From contig NZ_BJXA01000042.1 of the NCBI RefSeq assembly GCF_007990755.1, positions 1 to 64,000 on the forward strand: DNA of 64,000 bases, given 5' to 3'. Shown here piece by piece: positions 19,638-63,801 of the stretch. The stretch comes from Nocardia ninae NBRC 108245. Its GTDB lineage: Bacteria > Actinomycetota > Actinomycetes > Mycobacteriales > Mycobacteriaceae. The translations under genes were made by a program, and so were the position numbers. The notes under the pieces were generated by a model. It saw only the letters and a list, made by a program, of their open reading frames with translations, was not told where the DNA came from and searched no databases. Within the stretch, counting starts at the first letter, position 1. Every line of letters starts with the position of its first letter.

Positions 19638-20915
19638 CTATTTTCCGATGGCCGCTAGATAGTCTGCGGCTTGCTCGTCAATCTCTTGTATATCGGCGAT
19701 CGGTCGTCCGAGGTAGGGAGCCACAGTTGCGCGGATCCCACGGGCAACGTTCCGGGTGCGCCCCGACTGCACGCCGGCCATTGCGTTAAGCGCTGATTTC
19801 CATGTGGCGCAAGCCTGTTCGAGGTTCCCGCTTCTCGCCTGGACGGTGCCCAGATAGCCGAGCGTTACCGCGTGGGTTCGGGTGAACGTCTTAGCCTGGC
19901 GCTTGCGGACGCTGAGCTCGAACTGATCCGCGGCTCCGGACAGGTCACCCGCGTCGCGCAATGAGCAAGCGGTTTCGTGCGCGAGACTCGCTTCGGAGAA
20001 GAAGAACACGCGAGCAGGCTCAGTATCTGAGCTGGACGCCGCCGCCAGATCCTCTTCAGCTCTGAGAAGCGCTCTCGCCGATTCTGTGCGTCGTCCCGCC
20101 GCACTCAATGCTTTGGCGTGTACCACTTTCAGTAGCGCACGTTCACGAGGGCACGCGTTTCGGTAGCGGGCGCCTTCGACCGATGCTTCGGCGAGCTGTA
20201 GACCTTGCCGATGGTGGCCAAGGTCGACGGCCTGGTGCGCCATCGCACGCAGGACATGGCCGACCAGCGGAGCGTCGTCTGCCTCGGCGGCGAGCTTGGT
20301 CGAGGCGACGAAGAACCGTTGGGCGACAGAGTGTTCGTCGTTGTCGAACCCCATCCATCCGACCAGATACGCCATTTCGCCCGCTGCTGCGAACATGTCG
20401 CGCCGCACGGCTGCGCTCGCGAAGGAACCCTTTAGGAAGCTCGTCACCTCGCTGGTGAGGTACTGAGCAATAGCCGTCCGACCGTGCCCTCCGCCCAGGC
20501 GTTGATCCATCTGGGAAAACAAGCGCATCATTTCTCGCACAGCGGCAACATCCGCTGCGCCCACGTGCCTATTACCTGACTTCTTCTGCGACAGGTCAGA
20601 CGCCGCCGGAACGAGCCAGCCAGGGAGCAACACGGAAGCGCTGATGGCTGTGGAGTACCCGACACGTAGGAAAGAGCGCCGTTCCACATCAGCCCTTCCG
20701 AGGTTCGCGAGCGTATCAACAGGGTCTCGGATCTGACCGAAACGCTTTTCGTAACACGCTATGACATCGGCCGTGGGCGTGCGCTCTCCGGACTCGTAGT
20801 AGTTGAGGGCCGACTTACTGAACGGTATCTGGGTCGCCAACCCACGCAGGGATATCCCGGCGGCTTCGCGGGCCGCGTGGAGCTGCGCCCCGACGACTGC
20901 GGCGTGGGGGTCCAT
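19638..20915 (-). CDS. XRE-type regulator with TPR-like C-terminal domain
   Basis: 425 residues. The N-terminal 60 hold an XRE helix-turn-helix (REAAGISLRGLATQIPFSKS followed by LNYYESGERTP). The remaining 350 are helical repeats rich in Ala with motifs such as ETACSLRDAGDLSGAADQFE, as in TPR-containing regulators common in Streptomyces and Nocardia, some of which respond to peptide signals. The divergent plus-strand operon starts 186 bp away; a direct repeat TGTGGACA-CG-TGTGGACA lies 20 bp upstream of its start and is a natural operator candidate. It may belong to a chromosomal island rather than the phage. Confidence 0.8.
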   Translation of the reverse strand: MDPHAAVVGAQLHAAREAAGISLRGLATQIPFSKSALNYYESGERTPTADVIACYEKRFGQIRDPVDTLANLGRADVERRSFLRVGYSTAISASVLLPGWLVPAASDLSQKKSGNRHVGAADVAAVREMMRLFSQMDQRLGGGHGRTAIAQYLTSEVTSFLKGSFASAAVRRDMFAAAGEMAYLVGWMGFDNDEHSVAQRFFVASTKLAAEADDAPLVGHVLRAMAHQAVDLGHHRQGLQLAEASVEGARYRNACPRERALLKVVHAKALSAAGRRTESARALLRAEEDLAAASSSDTEPARVFFFSEASLAHETACSLRDAGDLSGAADQFELSVRKRQAKTFTRTHAVTLGYLGTVQARSGNLEQACATWKSALNAMAGVQSGRTRNVARGIRATVAPYLGRPIADIQEIDEQAADYLAAIGK

Positions 20916-26844: not shown

Positions 26845-26860
26845 TCGAACATTAGTTCGA
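26845..26860 (+). promoter_or_regulatory. Perfect LexA (SOS) box
   Basis: TCGAACATTAGTTCGA fits the mycobacterial/actinobacterial SOS consensus TCGAAC-N4-GTTCGA at all twelve defined positions, extended by one more pair (G...C). It lies 19 bases before the ATG at 26880. A -10-like TATCGT at 26868-26873 sits between box and ATG, so the transcript would be leaderless. Confidence 0.8.
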
Positions 26861-26879
26861 CTTGAGGTATCGTCGGCCC

Positions 26880-27131
26880 ATGCCTCAACTCTCGCGCCGC
26901 GACTGGGCGACCATGAACCTGGAAAATGTGCGTGACCAGCTGCTAGACGCGGCTGCGTTCGGGAAGTACCTGCCGCCCGAGCAGTTGGAGCACGCGGCCG
27001 GAAAGATCGGCGAAGGGCTTCGGGTCTTCCTGGAGTTGACGCCCGATCCGGTTGAGCTCGGGGACATCGAAGCCCCTGGCAGCGCGAAAGGCTGCCAGGG
27101 GCAATCGTCTATCCGAGAGTTCCACCGTTAG
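26880..27131 (+). CDS. SOS-controlled small protein, probably leaderless
   Basis: 83 residues: MPQLSRRDWATMNLENVRDQ, then a helical middle (LEHAAGKIGEGLRVFLEL) and DPVELGDIEA. No family recognised. The perfect LexA box and the -10 element immediately before the ATG mean DNA damage should switch it on, and the lack of an SD fits a leaderless start. The last 15 or so codons run through a terminator hairpin, so the natural stop region may have changed at this junction. An inducer or antirepressor role is attractive for a prophage but is inference. It converges on the late operon. Confidence 0.6.
   Translation: MPQLSRRDWATMNLENVRDQLLDAAAFGKYLPPEQLEHAAGKIGEGLRVFLELTPDPVELGDIEAPGSAKGCQGQSSIREFHR
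27045..27063 (+). repeat. VELG repeat, copy 3 (diverged)
   Basis: GATCCGGTTGAGCTCGGGG inside the SOS-controlled gene, encoding DPVELG. Two mismatches to the other copies in the first 14 bases; again a hairpin (27072-27102) follows. Confidence 0.5.
27072..27102 (-). terminator. Terminator at the end of the late operon
   Basis: A 12-bp perfect stem (GCCCCTGGCAGC / GCTGCCAGGGGC) with a 7-base loop, six bases beyond the stop of the last late gene. It can serve both strands; the T-run is poor on each. Confidence 0.75.
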
Positions 27132-49352: not shown

Positions 49353-49680
49353 GTTCGGGGTCGTCGTTCGGGACTACGTCCCTCTCTCCTACCCCTCACT
49401 AGTAAGTAGGTGACCAATTCTCCGAAAACCGTTGTTCGTACGGCGTCTAGTGGCGCAGCTCACACAAACTTTCTCGGCGACCTGGGAGTTTCCGGCATAG
49501 CTAGCCGATAGCGAACTTCCATACCCGTACAGGAACGGGCAGCCGCAGTGACGAGCCGGTGCCGGTGGGGGCCGGGGGAGGGTGCCCCCTGGGGTACCGG
49601 GGGTGACGCGACGCGCGACCGTAGCGGCTCGACTGTTCGGCGGTCCAGGGATCTCGATGTGCTATGCGCCACAGTCGAAT
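49353..49680. other. Junction of the two phage arms; expected cos region
   Basis: About 330 bp without a gene between divergent late and early operons. Contains a GC-rich segment with GGGGG runs and GGTGCCCCCTGGGGTACC near 49580-49600. In L5-type phages the physical genome ends lie between these two operons, so the joined cos should be here or in the hairpin array. The exact cut cannot be seen. Confidence 0.55.
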
Positions 49681-49714
49681 TCATGTTGACATGCACCACC
49701 GGTATACGTAAGTT
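49677..49714 (+). promoter_or_regulatory. Early promoter 1 with operator over -35
   Basis: TTGACA at 49686-49691, 17-base spacer, TAAGTT at 49709-49714, then seven bases to a GTG. CATGTTGACATG is a 5-2-5 palindrome over the -35 box, and its reverse complement reads GGTGCATGTCAAC, 10 of 13 positions like the L5 stoperator GGTGG[AC]TGTCAAG. Corresponds in place to L5 Pleft. Confidence 0.82.
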
Positions 49715-49721
49715 CGGTGCT

Positions 49722-49910
49722 GTGAATGAGACACAGACCAGCCCGCTAGCCATGCTGACCAGATCCGAGCAGTTCCACCTGCTCGGCGAGTGGCACAGCG
49801 TAGGTAAGTACCGATCTATGCGTCCGACCTTTCAGGAGCAGCGCGACCACGCCGCGTACGAGACCGGGTACGTGTTCGGTCTTCTGACCGGCGAAAGCCA
49901 CCAGCTCTAG
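49722..49910 (+). CDS. First early-arm protein, leaderless
   Basis: 62 residues from a GTG located seven bases after the -10 box, so the mRNA should begin at or next to the start codon. The product includes LTRSEQFHLLGEWHSVGKYR and a helical C-terminus YETGYVFGLLTGESHQL. No SD. Under the control of the repressed early promoter, so expected to be among the first genes made after infection or induction. No family recognised. Confidence 0.6.
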   Translation: MNETQTSPLAMLTRSEQFHLLGEWHSVGKYRSMRPTFQEQRDHAAYETGYVFGLLTGESHQL

Positions 49911-51083: not shown

Positions 51084-51310
51084 GTGTTCCCGCGGACCAT
51101 CCGGGCAGCTCGTCCAGCTACTTGAGGGCGACCGGAACGGGTGTGCTCGTGCCGAGACCTGTTGTGCGCGTATGTATCTCGCACGGAGTATGCCGAGAAT
51201 GCCCCCTAGTCGCGCCGCTGAGCGATCGAAGCGGCCCGCAGCGGCAACCCGTTACCCCCGGCCATTTTCGGCGCTTAGATCGGCAAATAGGGCGAGTTGA
51301 AGAAAATGGC
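51084..51310. other. Gap before the second early promoter
   Basis: About 230 bp. A 72-codon open frame exists but has no SD and an Arg/Ser/Pro-rich composition typical of chance frames. Nothing else noticed. Confidence 0.4.
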
Positions 51311-51348
51311 GGATTCATGTTGACATGCACCGGAGGTGCACGTAATGT
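51311..51348 (+). promoter_or_regulatory. Early promoter 2 with operator over -35
   Basis: TTGACA at 51320-51325, 17-base spacer, TAATGT at 51343-51348. The 19 bases from ATTCATGTT to GCACC are identical to those of promoter 1 at 49.68 kb, including the CATGTTGACATG palindrome. An ATG follows after five bases, but the frame it opens is poor, so this promoter probably makes the structured leader downstream. Confidence 0.82.
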
Positions 51349-51700
51349 CGTTCATGTCAGGCCGAGCGGCCGGACATTCAGAAACAACTTCCGATTGCAC
51401 GGCAAGGCGCGAACTACTCGCGGACCGTACGTGTCAATCAACTGTCCTTTGTGAACTTCATAGTGTGGGGCCTACGCCCGGAACGAATACCGAATTGACT
51501 TGTCTTCGGTATTCGCGCTCGGGCGTAACTACGGCTCGCCGTAGCCGCCGTTCCGTATGGGGTAAATCGGCGTTTGCTATCGCGAGTCACCCCGTAGTCA
51601 AACCTCTAGATGCGCCGCATACATGGCGCTCCGGATGGCCAGGACTTCAATGCCGGGCTCACGCCTGGAAAAGCTGGGTCATACCAGCGCGGGGACGAAA
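51349..51700 (+). ncRNA. Structured leader or non-coding RNA from promoter 2
   Basis: About 350 bases with no convincing gene. At 51474-51526 there is a long hairpin: outer stem ACGCCCG / CGGGCGT, inner stem GAATACCGA / TCGGTATTC with a 12-base loop. A second hairpin, CTACGG / CCGTAG, follows at 51529-51544. The region ends at the gene at 51715, which has its own strong SD. Could be a regulatory RNA or a long 5' leader. Confidence 0.55.
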
Positions 51701-54255: not shown

Positions 54256-55338
54256 ATGTCACAGGAAACAATCGAATGGTTGAACAACTATACGTTGATC
54301 GGCCAAACCGACAAGCGCGGAAAGGCTTGGCACTACCGCAAGGCCGACCAGGACGACAAGTCCAATCACTACCCGGGATTCGTTCCCGTCGCGGATGTTG
54401 TTGCGCGACTGTTCAATTGGGAGGCGCAGGCCGCACCTATCCGCTACGACGTGCCCGGCACGGTCGAAACCTTCACCAGCATCGGTGACGGCGAGATGAT
54501 TCGGACCATCACCGACGATTCGCGAAAGGTCATCTACCGCAGCGATACCGGCGCGTTGCTAGGCGTGTTCAAAGAGGGCTACAGGATTCACCAGTTCCAG
54601 GAATGGTTGCTCGACAACCTTGCCAGCCTGATCACCCCGGACGGTCTCGCAGTGTCCACGGACTCTCTCGGCATCGGATCCGCCGGTCTGCTGAAGAACG
54701 GGGCACAGGCGTGGGTGCAGATCGAACGCCCCGAGAACGTCACGACTCCGCAAGGCGTCGAGTTCAGATCGTCTCTACTCGCCACGTCCTCGCACGATGG
54801 CTCTATCGCGACTCAGTACGCGGCCGTGCAAACGATCGTGGTGTGTGACAACACGATGGCGTCGGCGCTGAATGAGGCGCGCGGCACCGGCAAGCGGTTC
54901 AAGTTCAAACGAACCAAGAATTCGCTAGACAAGATCAGCGATGCCCGGCAGGCACTCGGCATCGTTGTGGAGTCGGCGGACCGCTTCGCCGCCGACGTGG
55001 CGCAGCTGTGCGCGACCACGGTCACGGATCGCCAATTCTCGGAGTTCCTGAAGCTGTGGGCACCGGTGCCAGATGAGAAGGGACGCGGGCGCACGCTGGC
55101 CGAGAACAAGCGCGACGCGCTGAAAGCCATGTACGACACCGACATGCGAGCGGCCCCCTGGCGCGGCACGGCGTTCGGTGTCCTGCAATCGGTCAACACC
55201 TACAACCATCACGGTTCGACGGTGCGCGGTGAGACCACCCGGGCCGAACGGAACATGTCTAATGCGATCACCGGCAAGACAGGGGAAGCGGACGCGGAAG
55301 CACTCGACATGCTGAACAGAGTGTTGGTGTGCGCTTAA
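54256..55338 (+). CDS. DUF932 phage/plasmid-like protein
   Basis: About 360 residues. Matches the DUF932 (TIGR03299) pattern: TDKRGKAWHYRKADQD near the start, GVFKEGYRIHQFQEWLLDNL, then SSLLATSSHDGSIATQYAAV and VVCDNTMASALNEA, and NTYNHHGSTVRGETTRAERN near the end. Function is unresolved; present on many phages and plasmids. ATG 54256 is preferred to 54253 because AAAGG is then six bases away. Confidence 0.85.
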   Translation: MSQETIEWLNNYTLIGQTDKRGKAWHYRKADQDDKSNHYPGFVPVADVVARLFNWEAQAAPIRYDVPGTVETFTSIGDGEMIRTITDDSRKVIYRSDTGALLGVFKEGYRIHQFQEWLLDNLASLITPDGLAVSTDSLGIGSAGLLKNGAQAWVQIERPENVTTPQGVEFRSSLLATSSHDGSIATQYAAVQTIVVCDNTMASALNEARGTGKRFKFKRTKNSLDKISDARQALGIVVESADRFAADVAQLCATTVTDRQFSEFLKLWAPVPDEKGRGRTLAENKRDALKAMYDTDMRAAPWRGTAFGVLQSVNTYNHHGSTVRGETTRAERNMSNAITGKTGEADAEALDMLNRVLVCA

Positions 55339-55356
55339 AGGCTTCAGCACACTTGT

Positions 55357-55387
55357 GGCTCCCGGTCGTCCTTAGCGACCGGGGGCC
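55357..55387 (+). promoter_or_regulatory. Hairpin with UCCUUAG loop, copy 2
   Basis: 12-bp stem GGCTCCCGGTCG / CGACCGGGGGCC with loop TCCTTAG and one T-G wobble, matching the hairpin at 50560 in everything but stem sequence. No T-run. The next gene begins 34 bases further. Confidence 0.6.
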
Positions 55388-55421
55388 GCTTCGTATCCGA
55401 GCTATCGAGAAGGGGAACACG

Positions 55422-55652
55422 ATGGGGCCAAACCCGAACCACCTGCTAGCCGAGTTCCGTCAGGCCGTCGCAGAATCCGAACACCTTGCTGAAGAGTTCA
55501 ACTCAGATGATGACAAGGAGCACTCGCCAACGGAGTTCGAACGGTACGACGACCAAATGACCGCCCTATACCGAAGGGCGATCGAAGCGATGGACGCTCT
55601 AGACGGCTATCTCTCGCACGGCGGGCAACCGCCTGACGAGTGGCTGCGCTAG
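55422..55652 (+). CDS. Hypothetical acidic helical protein
   Basis: 76 residues: LLAEFRQAVAESEHLAEEFN, then DDDKEHSPTEFERYDDQMTA. GAGAAGGGGAA precedes the ATG. Probably a single helical hairpin. Family unknown. Confidence 0.6.
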   Translation: MGPNPNHLLAEFRQAVAESEHLAEEFNSDDDKEHSPTEFERYDDQMTALYRRAIEAMDALDGYLSHGGQPPDEWLR

Positions 55653-55684
55653 AACATCGTGGCGGGCACAGGGATTCGACCGTA

Positions 55685-56113
55685 GTGTCGGTTCCTGTGA
55701 CCAGTTCTTCACCCTCGCAGGGTGATTCACGCGCCTATCCCAAGACCGAGCCGCTTCCTGCCGGACCGGTTCCCTACCCGGGCTCCGGCCCGGCGTCAGC
55801 CCCGGCGCCAGCGGGTCCTTCGTACCCGCTGGGAACCTCGCAGTTGCCTCCGTACGGAGCCGCGTACCCGCACGGCCATCCGGTCCCGCAGTACCAGCAG
55901 CCGTATCCGGCGGGGCCAGGGGTATGGCCGGCGGGAGGTCCGCAACCGCCGAATCCTGGCTACGTCAGCCCGCGGCAGCCGATGGTGATGATGCAGAACG
56001 TCACCGTGACGCCGCGCCGGAGATGCAACCACCCGCTGCACTTCGCGCTCACCTTGATCTCTTGTGGGCTGTGGGCTCCGGTCTGGCTGTTCCTGGCGAT
56101 CGTTCAGCGGTAG
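55685..56113 (+). CDS. Pro-rich protein with C-terminal membrane helix
   Basis: 142 residues. A Pro/Gly/Tyr-rich 90-residue N-terminal tract is followed by RRRCNHPLHFALTLISCGLW and APVWLFLAIVQR, a single C-terminal membrane helix with a Cys-His-His start that is common in actinobacterial and actinophage membrane proteins. GTG at 55685 has only a weak SD. Being expressed close to the repressor gene, a role in superinfection exclusion is possible. Confidence 0.62.
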   Translation: MSVPVTSSSPSQGDSRAYPKTEPLPAGPVPYPGSGPASAPAPAGPSYPLGTSQLPPYGAAYPHGHPVPQYQQPYPAGPGVWPAGGPQPPNPGYVSPRQPMVMMQNVTVTPRRRCNHPLHFALTLISCGLWAPVWLFLAIVQR

Positions 56114-56369
56114 TACGGATGTGAAGGCTTGAGCCGCGCGGAAACAACTCGGCCTGCGATCGGGGCCAGGTTCGTGGTTTGGATGTGTCTGATCGGTGCA
56201 GGGACAGTAGAGGTTTGAGGCTGTTCTAAAAGGCGGATACGGAGCGTTCCCGCAGATCAGGCTGTGCGAGAAGGCATTTGAGTCCTCGGTGGGCAAACCT
56301 AATTTGGTACCCGTCAGGTTGACTTCTAAACAAGTTGTGACAGAGACTTGGGTCACATCGGTAGAAGTG
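56114..56369. other. Intergenic region upstream of the repressor gene
   Basis: Part of a 400-bp control region. Contains GGTTGACTTC near 56320 and TTGTGACAGAGACTTGGGTCAC, which are promoter-like but have no good -10 partner. No gene visible. Confidence 0.45.
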
Positions 56370-56385
56370 TCGAACGCGTGTTCGA
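56370..56385. promoter_or_regulatory. Perfect LexA (SOS) box upstream of the repressor gene
   Basis: TCGAACGCGTGTTCGA, twelve of twelve defined bases of the actinobacterial consensus TCGAAC-N4-GTTCGA. TACCGT follows directly and could be a -10 element. It lies 130 bases before the repressor ATG; no other start is nearby, so the target transcript is either the repressor mRNA or an antisense RNA. Confidence 0.78.
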
Positions 56386-56436
56386 TACCGTAGGGACGGG
56401 TTGGGGCTGAAGGGGAGGGGGGAGTGGGGATGACGT

Positions 56437-56467
56437 AGTTGACATATGCCCGCAGACACTGTCAACT
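56437..56467. promoter_or_regulatory. Operator pair in front of the repressor gene
   Basis: AGTTGACA and its exact inverted copy TGTCAACT, 15 bases apart. The core TTGACA/TGTCAA is shared with the operators of the two early promoters. TAGTCT at 56467 may serve as -10. Suggests autoregulation of the repressor. Confidence 0.65.
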
Positions 56468-56514
56468 AGTCTGTTGTGACAGCGGACAAGTCGGGGGCCG
56501 AGAAGGACCAACAA

Positions 56515-57024
56515 ATGAATACAGTCATTGACGGATTGTCAGCCGAGGTGGTTCAGGCGCTGGTAGATAAGGGCGAAGGCTTCGCCGCAATCGCGAGACG
56601 CTTTGGATACACGCGGCAATACGTTCAGCAGTTCGCGGCTCGTAACGGTATTTCCCTACCGAAGACGCCGCGAAGGATGGTGGGGGAGGAATTTCCCTGG
56701 AAGGTACCCTCCGCGATGCAGCGGACACCGCCGTACCGGCGGATGCGGGACCACGGGGAGTTTATGGCGACCGGCGGCGAAGGTATGTCGGATGAGAAGA
56801 AGTCAAGGCTCCGGTCTTGGTATGCCATGCTTCGGAAGTACAACTATGTACTCGAGTTCGATCCTAAGCTCCCTCCTACTGTCGGTGTTTCCCCGGCCGG
56901 AGGCTTCGCCTACCGTCCGCGCGAAGAGCGCGACGGAAAGAAACTTCTGATCAGGCTTAACGAGCACACTCGGCTGACATCCGACGGGAAGAAGATTTGG
57001 GTGTTTCCGCCGAAGGACCCGTAG
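56515..57024 (+). CDS. Immunity repressor, L5 gp71-like
   Basis: 169 residues from an ATG with GAGAAGGA seven bases upstream; a GTG at 56476 would add 13. N-terminal helix-turn-helix (GEGFAAIARRFGYTRQYVQQ), then a region that matches recalled L5 gp71 closely: YRRMRDHGEFMATGG (L5: FQRLRDHGEYM), MSDEKKSRLRSWYAMLR (L5: MSEDKKKRLLSWWKMLR), VLEFDPKLPP (L5: VLEFDPSIEP) and RLNEHTRLT (L5: RVNEHT.LT). L5 gp71 shuts off the early promoter and binds stoperators along the genome. Matching operator sites exist in this window. Perfect SOS box upstream. Confidence 0.9.
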   Translation: MNTVIDGLSAEVVQALVDKGEGFAAIARRFGYTRQYVQQFAARNGISLPKTPRRMVGEEFPWKVPSAMQRTPPYRRMRDHGEFMATGGEGMSDEKKSRLRSWYAMLRKYNYVLEFDPKLPPTVGVSPAGGFAYRPREERDGKKLLIRLNEHTRLTSDGKKIWVFPPKDP

Positions 57025-57042
57025 CGAAGGGGATGGACGAAC

Positions 57043-57321
57043 TTGCTTGATCTGCTGCGCCACGATTCACTTGTCGTAGTGAATAACCTGCCGTGGGTGC
57101 AGGCGTTTCTCGAGGTAACCGCTGGAACCGTCTTGCTGCTCGTCCGTCGAAGTCTGGCCTTGCCCTTAGATGACGAAGACTACGATCCGGTCGCGGATTT
57201 CATCAAGATACGCAGAACAGAGCTGTTGTCGGAACGGACGGAAAAATTTCCTGAATTCATGTTCGGATGCGCTCTTATGTCCTGTTACCGTGTCGACGGT
57301 GTCAAGGAAAGCGCAGCATAA
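57043..57321 (+). CDS. Hypothetical protein after the repressor
   Basis: 92 residues from a TTG with GAAGGGGATGG upstream. LLRHDSLVVVNNLPWVQAFL, a hydrophobic stretch (EVTAGTVLLLV), then a charged C-terminal half with PVADFIKIRRTELLSE. Follows the repressor with an 18-base gap and may be co-expressed in the lysogen. Function unknown. Confidence 0.55.
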   Translation: MLDLLRHDSLVVVNNLPWVQAFLEVTAGTVLLLVRRSLALPLDDEDYDPVADFIKIRRTELLSERTEKFPEFMFGCALMSCYRVDGVKESAA

Positions 57322-57337
57322 CCACATAGGAGTCAAT

Positions 57338-57355
57338 ATGGTGGGGACCGGATGA
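57338..57355 (+). CDS. Five-codon upstream reading frame (M-V-G-T-G)
   Basis: AGGAG, five bases, ATG GTG GGG ACC GGA TGA. Its stop overlaps the ATG of the exonuclease gene as ATGA. It has the best SD in the area, so ribosomes probably start here and reinitiate at 57352, just before a terminator-like hairpin. Confidence 0.5.
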   Translation: MVGTG

Positions 57356-58173
57356 CCGGTTCGACCACAGACGAGAGGCCGCCCGGCACCGGGCGGCCTC
57401 TTTCTGTTTCCCAGCACAAAACATACGAGCGATGCTCCTACGGCTATTACTTGGAGCGCATCGAGGGAGTCTGGCAGCGGCCCGCGGCGTGGCTATCACA
57501 AGGCACTGCGTTCCACGAGGCAGCCGAAGCCTATGAACGGTCCGGCCGGGCAATGACCGTGCCGGAGATGCAGGAGGTGTTTCGGGAGTCCTACGCGCAC
57601 GAAACGAACAAGATGGCCGACGAGACTCCGAACCTGGCCTACTGGTTCAGTTCTGGGCCGTACGCCGGGCCGCAGGACATCGAACGCCGGTACGGAATCG
57701 GACTCGAACAAGTCGAGCGGTACCCGGCCTGGTACGAAAAGCACCCGAACGAAGTCATCTGGATAGATCCAGACGGCGAGCCCGGCATTGAGTTGGGGTT
57801 CGTTGTCGACCTGGACGGCATCACCGTTCGTGGGTTCATTGACGCGGTGATCCTGGACGAGACCACCGGCCGGATGAGGGTCCGAGACAACAAGAGCGGC
57901 AACCAACCCGGCGATGATTTTCAGCTCGGAACCTACAGTGCCGCCCTGGCGGTCAAATACGGGATCGAGCAGCCCTCGATCGGTGACTACTGGATGGCAA
58001 GGACCGGTAAGCCGACGTTCGACTACGACCTCGCAGAGTGGACGGTCGACCGAGTCACCGAAGAGTTCCACCAGCTAGCGGCAAACATCGAAGCAGCACG
58101 ATTCATCCCGGATCCGGAACCGTCGAAATGCCGGTTCTGCTCAGTTGCGTCATCGTGCGAATTTTCCATGTGA
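57352..58173 (+). CDS. Cas4-like RecB-family exonuclease
   Basis: 273 residues. LSVSQHKTYERCSYGYYLE at the N-terminus, GTAFHEAAEAYE, GFIDAVILDE with the active Asp, VRDNKSGNQ (D-x-K), QLGTYSAALA and a C-terminal Cys set CRFCSVASSC which, with the N-terminal Cys, would bind an iron-sulfur cluster. Cluster A phages encode this enzyme near the repressor (L5 gp69 region). A terminator-like hairpin lies across codons 8-15, so part of the gene may be under attenuation or the true start may be later. Confidence 0.85.
   Translation: MTGSTTDERPPGTGRPLSVSQHKTYERCSYGYYLERIEGVWQRPAAWLSQGTAFHEAAEAYERSGRAMTVPEMQEVFRESYAHETNKMADETPNLAYWFSSGPYAGPQDIERRYGIGLEQVERYPAWYEKHPNEVIWIDPDGEPGIELGFVVDLDGITVRGFIDAVILDETTGRMRVRDNKSGNQPGDDFQLGTYSAALAVKYGIEQPSIGDYWMARTGKPTFDYDLAEWTVDRVTEEFHQLAANIEAARFIPDPEPSKCRFCSVASSCEFSM
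57374..57406 (+). terminator. Terminator-like hairpin inside the exonuclease 5' end
   Basis: AGAGGCCGCCC / GGGCGGCCTCT, 11-bp stem with loop GGCACC, then TTCTGTTTCC. Ends the repressor transcript if ribosomes do not mask it. It begins 22 bases inside the exonuclease gene. Confidence 0.72.
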
Positions 58174-58188
58174 CCTGAACAACCAGTG

Positions 58189-58220
58189 CGCCCCTAGACC
58201 AACGTCCCGGGGCGTTTTTT
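58189..58220 (+). terminator. Rho-independent terminator
   Basis: CGCCCC / GGGGCG with a 14-base loop that can extend the stem, followed by six T residues. Follows the exonuclease gene. Confidence 0.8.
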
Positions 58221-58244
58221 GTGCCATGACCAGGAGGTACTGAC

Positions 58245-59048
58245 GTTTACACACTGCTCCAATCCCAGACCATCCGAGGCGCAGCGGGCAAGCCACTACC
58301 AACGGTCTTCAGAGCGCTTGCCGACAAGGGCACCGAATTCCTGCTGGGCCAGCTCGTGCTCGTCGCCGCCGGGCCTGGCACGGGCAAGAGCCTGTTTGCA
58401 CTCACCCTCGCCTTGCGGTCCAAGGTTCCGACCCTGTATTTCAGCGCTGATAGTGATGCGTTCACCCAGCTCACCCGCTCGGTAAGTGTCCTAACCGAAT
58501 GGCGCCACGAAGAAGCCGCCAAACGAGTACTCGCCGGAGACCTCAACATGGTTTTCGACCTGCTGACCAAGGTTCCGATCCGCTTCGTCTATGAAGCGTC
58601 TCCAACGCTGGATGACATCGAGCGCGCGATGCTGGCGTACGACGAAGTGCACGGCCACTTCCCTCAGTTGGTCGTGGTCGACAACATCACGAACGTGTCC
58701 ACCGCGGCCAGCGGTGAAGACCCGTTCGCCGGCCTGGAAGCCCTTGCCGACTACCTACACGGGATGGCGCGCCAAACCGGCGCGTGCGTGGTGTGCCTGC
58801 ACCACGTCACCGGCCCGTATGTTGATGCCGCTAAGCCCATCCCGTTGTCGGGGGTCAAGGGCCAGATCACCAGAGTCCCCGAAACCGTACTGACTCTCTT
58901 CAGACCGGTACGTGAGTTCGGTGGAGACGTTCTCGGGGTGTCGACGGTCAAAAACCGCGCAGGCCGCGCGGATCCATCCGGCATGGATTTCGCTGAACTC
59001 GAATGGATCGGCGACACGATGACGATCCGTGACGTCCGTGCCGCCTAA
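58245..59048 (+). CDS. RecA/DnaB-like AAA ATPase (replicative helicase-like)
   Basis: About 267 residues. Walker A AAGPGTGKS near residue 42, Walker B QLVVVDNITNV, GQITRVPETVLTLFRP near the end and a KNRAGRADPSG loop, the pattern of phage DnaB-like RecA ATPases. The usual start codons are absent: the first is a GTG at 58356, only six residues before Walker A, but coding clearly extends upstream (YTLLQSQTIRGAAGKPLPT). A perfect AGGAGG stands seven bases before a GTT at 58245, so a rare start or a sequence error is likely. Confidence 0.82.
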   Translation, partial: VYTLLQSQTIRGAAGKPLPTVFRALADKGTEFLLGQLVLVAAGPGTGKSLFALTLALRSKVPTLYFSADSDAFTQLTRSVSVLTEWRHEEAAKRVLAGDLNMVFDLLTKVPIRFVYEASPTLDDIERAMLAYDEVHGHFPQLVVVDNITNVSTAASGEDPFAGLEALADYLHGMARQTGACVVCLHHVTGPYVDAAKPIPLSGVKGQITRVPETVLTLFRPVREFGGDVLGVSTVKNRAGRADPSGMDFAELEWIGDTMTIRDVRAA

Positions 59049-63561: not shown

Positions 63562-63801
63562 GTGACCACTGCTGAAACCGCCTTCTTGTATCGCCGGATC
63601 GAGGATCTGGAGGCCGAGAACGAAGCACTGAAGACGAAGTACGACAACCGAAAAAAGCTGTCGCACAACGATGTCCGATGGATCCGGCGGCTAGCCGACA
63701 ACGCGAAGCTCAGTCACGCGGAGCTGGCGGAGATGTACGGCGTCGGTGAGCCCAACATCAGCCGCATCGTCAGGCGCATCTATTACCCCGAGGTGGCGTG
63801 A
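63562..63801 (+). CDS. Coiled-coil helix-turn-helix protein
   Basis: 79 residues from a GTG with GGGAGC upstream. A short coiled coil (LYRRIEDLEAENEALKTKYD) is followed by a helix-turn-helix: VRWIRRLADNAKLSHAELAE then MYGVGEPNISRIVRR. A small regulator or DNA-binding accessory placed directly before the polymerase gene, with a GTGA overlap. Confidence 0.78.
   Translation: MTTAETAFLYRRIEDLEAENEALKTKYDNRKKLSHNDVRWIRRLADNAKLSHAELAEMYGVGEPNISRIVRRIYYPEVA

Follow-up and report, generated by a model that had tools for sequence, protein, structure and literature searches.

A LexA box before the immunity repressor of a Cluster-A-type Nocardia prophage: a candidate damage-switched repressor promoter

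Prophage immunity and the DNA damage response

According to the textbook rule, DNA damage destroys or bypasses the repressor of a prophage, which is thereby freed. Destruction is exemplified by the RecA-cleaved repressors of lambda-type phages, while coliphage 186 (Tum) and Gifsy-type prophages employ LexA-controlled antirepressors. Host LexA can also act at phage promoters directly, as in the Bacillus phage GIL01, where it is found at lytic promoters (PMC6182141). In Cluster A (L5/Bxb1-type) phages the repressor promoter lies in the upstream intergenic region and autoregulation has been proposed; expression falls over the next gene and Cas4 after the repressor (PMC6550527). A damage input is not mentioned in the accessible part of that account. 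A second damage regulator, PafBC, is independent of LexA and recognises the motif TGTCGG-10N-TA-3N-T, with variants TGTCAG and TGTCAC, whose direction is essential (PMC8151990). Some genes, recA included, carry this RecA-NDp (PafBC) motif together with an SOS box (PMC8223512), and PafBC is triggered by single-stranded DNA, as the title of PMC11804915 states.

Here an SOS box is described in front of the immunity repressor of a Nocardia prophage, within a stretch of 64 kb that was analysed as a whole (the window). The locus resembles the Cluster A immunity system in its homologous repressor and in the order repressor, small gene, Cas4-RecB exonuclease, DnaB and other replication genes; it differs in carrying the LexA box. 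With 186 and the Gifsy-type prophages it shares a putative host LexA operator in the immunity region and a switch tied to SOS, but the interval between box and repressor contains no clear antirepressor gene, and the predicted promoter is directed into the repressor gene itself. GIL01 would be similar in that host LexA acts at phage promoters, whereas here the gene concerned is the repressor and the phage is of an unrelated type. Host promoters of the recA type, with both LexA and PafBC motifs in one control region, have a parallel in Gordonia phages described below; the differences are that an immunity repressor rather than a repair gene would be controlled, and that the Nocardia prophages have the box only. 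Among the open-licence PMC papers found by searching, none describes, to judge from title or abstract opening, control of a Cluster A immunity repressor by LexA, PafBC or DNA damage, in agreement with the initial annotation, which knew of no L5-type phage that uses LexA directly. Cluster A immunity, the SOS box and the PafBC promoter are each of a known kind; such wiring of them appears to be new.

The SOS box, the repressor unit and the prophage

The box and the genes and sites around it are as follows.

56121..56133, plus strand: candidate stoperator-like (repressor-binding) 13-mer GTGAAGGCTTGAG
56207..56219, plus strand: candidate stoperator-like (repressor-binding) 13-mer GTAGAGGTTTGAG
56370..56385, no strand assigned: perfect LexA (SOS) box TCGAACGCGTGTTCGA, with 12 of 12 defined consensus bases
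56515..57024, plus strand, with an alternative GTG start at 56476: Cluster-A-type (L5-type) immunity repressor (phrog_357, E 6.7e-59)
57043..57321, plus strand: 92-aa gene directly 3' of the repressor (phrog_4421)
57373..57402, plus strand: hairpin resembling a terminator (stem of 13 bp), within the 5' end of the exonuclease frame as annotated

The box ends 129 nt before the likely repressor ATG, which is preceded by an RBS-like stretch, and 90 nt before the alternative GTG. The initial annotation had reported a perfect box here and a total of two in the window, and both statements are exact: the only perfect matches lie at 26845-26860 and 56370-56385. Sites with one mismatch are absent from the window, while those with up to two mismatches number 11, against a shuffle mean of 4.15, a count attained in 0 of 100 shuffles. 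The whole host genome (9,698,742 bp) holds seven perfect boxes, two of them inside the window, and 91 boxes with at most one mismatch compared with 16 for a reversed-pattern control. Six other Nocardia genomes, all with prophages, contain two to seven perfect boxes each, and the reversed-pattern control gives zero in all six. The motif suits this host, since host lexA and recA bear boxes with a single mismatch (TCGAACAGATGTTTGA and TCGAACATCTGTTCGT).

This last observation bears on the possibility that the box is bound by some other regulator with an SOS-like site, for example one of the ArsR family, and that it responds to something other than DNA damage. In E. coli the ArsR site does differ little from the mycobacterial LexA consensus (PMC8151990). 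Such a reading is nevertheless improbable, given that the same box stands at host lexA and recA, that perfect boxes are few in each genome and that in Gordonia phages the box comes together with the PafBC damage motif.

The downstream gene, called an immunity repressor in the initial annotation, is confirmed as one: a profile built from the repressor and related sequences matches 7r6r/7tz1, an immunity repressor of solved structure, with E 1.7e-61, and 1,098 phage records match the repressor at E 0.01. Against Pfam at E 0.001 it matches no family, the self-cleaving (S24-type) domain included, and therefore shows no sign of RecA-stimulated self-cleavage, in which it differs from the lambda-type repressors. 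Because no self-cleaving domain is seen, nothing in the region other than the box evidently connects SOS with immunity.

The transcription unit is presumed to consist of the repressor and the 92-aa gene and to end at the hairpin at 57373-57402. A small gene occupies the same position after the repressor in the other six prophage-type loci too; for the 92-aa gene itself, tblastn against phages gives zero matches at E 0.01. The region has no excess of terminator-like sites (three against 2.3 in shuffles), the stem at 57373-57402 being the longest, and the hairpin is in place in the sibling prophages of genomes G484 and G040 and was not found in the other four prophages. As it falls within the 5' end of the exonuclease frame, the true start of that gene may lie further in, or lytic transcripts may need to read through the hairpin.

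The prophage has the Cluster A plan. The order of repressor, small gene, Cas4-type exonuclease and replication genes is present, with a DNA polymerase at 63798 and an integrase at contig position 70372; the early arm is on the plus strand, and tape measure, portal and terminase are on the minus strand at about 32-44 kb. No phage record is a close match to this stretch: 22 match it in part, none covering 80% of it. A minus-strand gene at 19638-20915, upstream of the structural genes of that strand, encodes a helix-turn-helix regulator (phrog_10886, E 1.1e-66) that may or may not belong to the prophage. Two promoter-like copies, 77% identical (ATTCATGTTGACATGCACC), lie at 49676-49723 and 51310-51357, with TAAGTT or TAATGT 17 nt after TTGACA; they are possibly the early lytic promoters, the -35 element of which would be covered by an operator. 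The 13-mers at 56121 and 56207 belong to a motif with six sites of at most one mismatch in the 64 kb, where 20 simulations gave 1.35 on average and at most four, and TGTCAA has only 15 matches in the window. The set is a weak candidate for stoperators, because the motif was derived from these same sequences.

The second perfect box, at 26845-26860, precedes an 83-aa DUF6374 gene (PF19901, E 7.3e-29; region 26845-27131). This gene has matches in 102 of 148 Nocardia genomes, and each of the best 30 loci has a box, with no mismatch in 16 and one in 14; the layout is box, usually 7 nt, TAnnnT, close to the start codon. From these sequences DUF6374 looks like an SOS-controlled, leaderless small-protein family. 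In the sibling prophage genome G484 the DUF6374 gene lies about 29 kb before the repressor. Elsewhere in the host, a perfect box with an abutting TACACT precedes a 296-aa gene (locus L004, contig C50, 38861), which has no Pfam match at E 1 and is possibly an undescribed SOS gene.

Conservation of the box and of damage-type motifs among relatives

Repressor matches occur in 14 of 150 same-genus genomes searched, the host's own included, and fragmentary matches (L029-L033) were left uncounted. Seven of the loci form the prophage set: the window and L138-L143, recognised because early genes of the phage flank the repressor (in G008 endonuclease VII is the only one). Six of the seven have a box with no more than one mismatch in the 540 nt before the repressor, the exception being the prophage of G035; a first-order Markov model of each upstream region predicts 0.0000-0.0027 such boxes per locus. 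The position of the box varies from -105 to -486 relative to the start of the repressor match. Four near-complete, solitary homologues with no phage genes around them (L144-L147) have no box. A tree of 73 repressors has those with a box in three places: window, G484 and G040; G042 and G008; and G019, which stands next to a Segniliparus sequence. Two label changes are needed within Nocardia, and a single origin of the box is possible. The suggestion that the G008 box is coding sequence was rejected, as the longest frame upstream ends about 106 nt short of it.

Beyond Nocardia, 99 loci show no excess of boxes at -600 to -1. Only three have a site with at most two mismatches (L070, L125 and L133), two of them with a single mismatch: L133, from Amycolatopsis, and L070, a Gordonia phage. 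No box was found at a Gordonia hankookensis locus (L116) or a Williamsia locus (L119). Matches with at most one mismatch do accumulate downstream of the repressor (27 at +1000 to +1499, about 1.0-1.5 kb away); these quasi-boxes were set aside as most likely coding, because the exonuclease gene of the window encodes ELGF there.

Gordonia phages of the Soupsvirus (Cluster-A15-type) group, subcluster A15 being that of Soups, Rosalind, KatherineG and others (PMC5559632), carry a one-mismatch box in four of six cases: LastResort, Waits, Nedarya and Anon. The four boxes stand at the same aligned position; their TCGAAC arm is invariant and their centre varies, and the place is kept despite divergence of the flanks, Nedarya being only 76% and Anon 69% identical to LastResort. 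The other two phages are natural rearrangements of the repressor region. Looper (L189) has no box with at most two mismatches in the 700 nt upstream, and its match to LastResort exists only next to the repressor; this phage has a short SprT gene, and only about 70 nt precede the repressor. In ShayRa (L190), which was read from its annotation, there is no repressor gene between gene 83 and Cas4, and the match to LastResort stops 11 nt short of the box.

These comparisons make a functionless chance match extremely improbable. Boxes with at most one mismatch do number 91 genome-wide, but perfect ones are rare, and the box is present in six of seven relatives and is also kept in diverged Gordonia phages; chance was rejected on the shuffles, on the conservation within Nocardia and on the scarcity of perfect boxes.

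The count of loci differs between analyses. Duplicates of counted genomes (L118, L121, L131 and L137) were dropped from the sets of 99, 117 and 128 loci; Nocardia thailandica (L136, with 253 nt upstream) is outside the seven and the 99 and inside the 117 and the 128; and Waits (L186) and Looper are outside the 128. Phages were fetched by name for 17 of the 1,098 matching records, besides the IMG/VR rows, many of which are near-copies, with an identical motif sequence in L046 and L048.

Between the box and the repressor lie the following predicted elements.

56386..56391, plus strand: predicted -10 element TACCGT, abutting the box and conserved in sibling G484
56400-56429 and 56430-56438, plus strand: leader, consisting of a G-rich tract followed by a start-stop mini-ORF (ATG ACG TAG)
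56439-56444 and 56460-56466, plus strand: putative proximal repressor promoter region, with TTGACA, an inverted operator-like TGTCAAC and no clear -10 element

A start of transcription would be expected near 56398. The best -35 candidate, TAGAAG at 56362-56367, has only three of six consensus bases, and a sigma-70 consensus scan of 55200-58400 found no promoter. TACCGT abuts the box in both the window and G484, and the host shows the same layout one base off at recA (TAATCT) and at L004. A TAnnnT aimed at the repressor within 20 nt of the box start was found at all nine boxes tested (six of Nocardia, with LastResort, Nedarya and Anon; the box-bearing L070 and L133 not included), the chance being 0.13-0.35 per locus. 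In four of the nine (G042, G008, LastResort and Nedarya) it precedes the box by exactly 7 nt, for which the chance product over the four loci is about 3e-9, the spacing having been noticed afterwards; at this distance the box would begin at the start site. G042 and G008 also have TTGCCG 17 nt further upstream in common. The layout of G040 differs, with the -10 element 13 nt before the box, and L070 reads TGCAGT where the near-identical LastResort (L182) has TACAGT.

The initial annotation had proposed that LexA holds back an antisense or alternative transcript, or makes the repressor itself LexA-dependent. The last two of these fit the anatomy, since a repressor-directed -10 element is predicted near all nine boxes. 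Control of a leftward (antisense) transcript or short RNA in place of the repressor fits less well. The palindrome TACCGTA does yield a reverse TACGGT in the window and in G484, but the other seven of the nine boxes have no reverse TAnnnT within 20 nt and the ORF tables hold no conserved leftward gene adjoining the box. With a reverse element near two of nine boxes only, a leftward promoter was rejected as the general case, and at this locus it is judged very improbable.

The PafBC motif recurs at the same place. In the Gordonia phages TGTCGG precedes the -10 element at exactly N10, so that LastResort, Waits, Nedarya and Anon have both box and PafBC motif before the repressor; host recA likewise bears both. 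Overall, 11 of 117 loci have TGTCRG-N10-TAnnnT, in the sense orientation, in the 600 nt that precede the repressor. There are 11 forward and 0 reverse copies in the 69,468 bp of upstream DNA, against five forward and four reverse in 675,747 bp elsewhere, and fourteen other spacings give 0-3 forward copies upstream. With the pattern fixed beforehand, four of 11 further mycobacteriophages had the motif (Pharaoh, Priya, Hoot and Centaur), or five with the TGTCAC variant (EvilGenius), which was added after EvilGenius had appeared as a one-mismatch match and in the light of PMC8151990. These 11 were chosen across the range of repressor identity, and some may have near relatives in the IMG/VR rows; at spacings N8, N9, N11 and N12 they contain zero motifs, and Bluefalcon, Bachome, Serenity, Twister, LeoAvram and Batiatus have no PafBC motif upstream of the repressor. 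The two bases after TGTC are GG in 12 upstream sites and one elsewhere, AA in four and none, and AG in three and two; the AA class (TGTCAA) resembles repressor-binding sites. Across all 128 loci the box occurs in 11, the PafBC motif in 16, both in three and neither in 104. No PafBC motif lies upstream of the repressor of the window or of the other Nocardia prophages. To judge from motif matches, a damage-type element at this place is recurrent among relatives and not universal.

A proposed extra promoter for the repressor

The favoured reading, given a probability of about 0.58, is that the repressor unit has an extra, damage-switched promoter with the box as its operator; LexA would keep this promoter off and damage would turn it on, raising repressor. 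In an undamaged lysogen, LexA bound at the promoter would keep the distal start off or low while other transcription supplies the repressor. The damage response would remove LexA, allowing RNA polymerase to start just downstream of the box (about 56398), and the transcript would run into the repressor gene and increase repressor synthesis under damage. Lysogeny would thereby be held or established in a damaged or replication-stressed cell. In some mycobacteriophages PafBC would turn on an equivalent promoter, and more repressor would also be made in a cell with much single-stranded DNA. The likely sign, with damage leading to more repressor transcription, is the reverse of classical (lambda-style) SOS induction and goes beyond what the initial annotation stated.

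The main doubt concerns the sign at the level of protein, as more transcript need not mean more repressor when the leader carries a mini-ORF and a G-tract. G-tract, mini-ORF and SD-like stretch are kept in three siblings, the mini-ORF position reading ATGACGTAG in G484 and ATGTAA in G040, and TTGAC before the repressor is conserved in siblings. The frames between box and repressor in the window are only mini-ORFs (2-7 aa) with an SD-like start; the leaders of G042 and G008 have frames of 10-43 aa with a weak SD. The same damage-induced promoter may thus have the opposite outcome, working repressor falling and SOS helping prophage induction, whether by transcription running over the proximal promoter, by a poorly translated leader or by the 92-aa partner acting as an anti-repressor. 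The evidence for the promoter serves this outcome equally, the conserved leader and the small gene of unassigned function directly after the repressor would be suited to it, and lambda-style logic favours damage induction. It is nonetheless unlikely: the repressor has its own RBS-like stretch and ATG within the same transcript, any upstream promoter would express the 92-aa gene along with the repressor, and the folding of the leader RNA is no better than that of shuffles (z -0.95). The recurrence at the same place of PafBC, which is an activator, fits the making of repressor at least as well.

A published observation is related to the proposed increase in repressor: on infection by the Rhodococcus phage WC1, host SOS genes and the putative repressor are up early (PMC10986025); Harlequin, another R. 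erythropolis phage, has neither box nor PafBC motif. Two mitomycin-treated Nocardia strains gave no prophage, perhaps because none in them is complete (PMC4972346).

A wider generalisation is tentative, and judged somewhat more apt to fail than to hold: in Cluster-A-type phages of several actinobacterial genera the repressor may be wired to the damage response with the sign reversed, so that damage to the host, or the onset of replication of the incoming genome, would leave the phages more immune and less inducible, or turn them to lysogeny. The sensor of damage or single-stranded DNA would be LexA in Nocardia, PafBC in some mycobacteriophages and both in the Gordonia A15-type phages. If damage does raise the repressor, there would be a reason why such Cluster A lysogens might resist damage induction, as well as a candidate promoter for the establishment of lysogeny, and some Cluster A phages would, against the textbook rule, be using LexA or PafBC to make more repressor.
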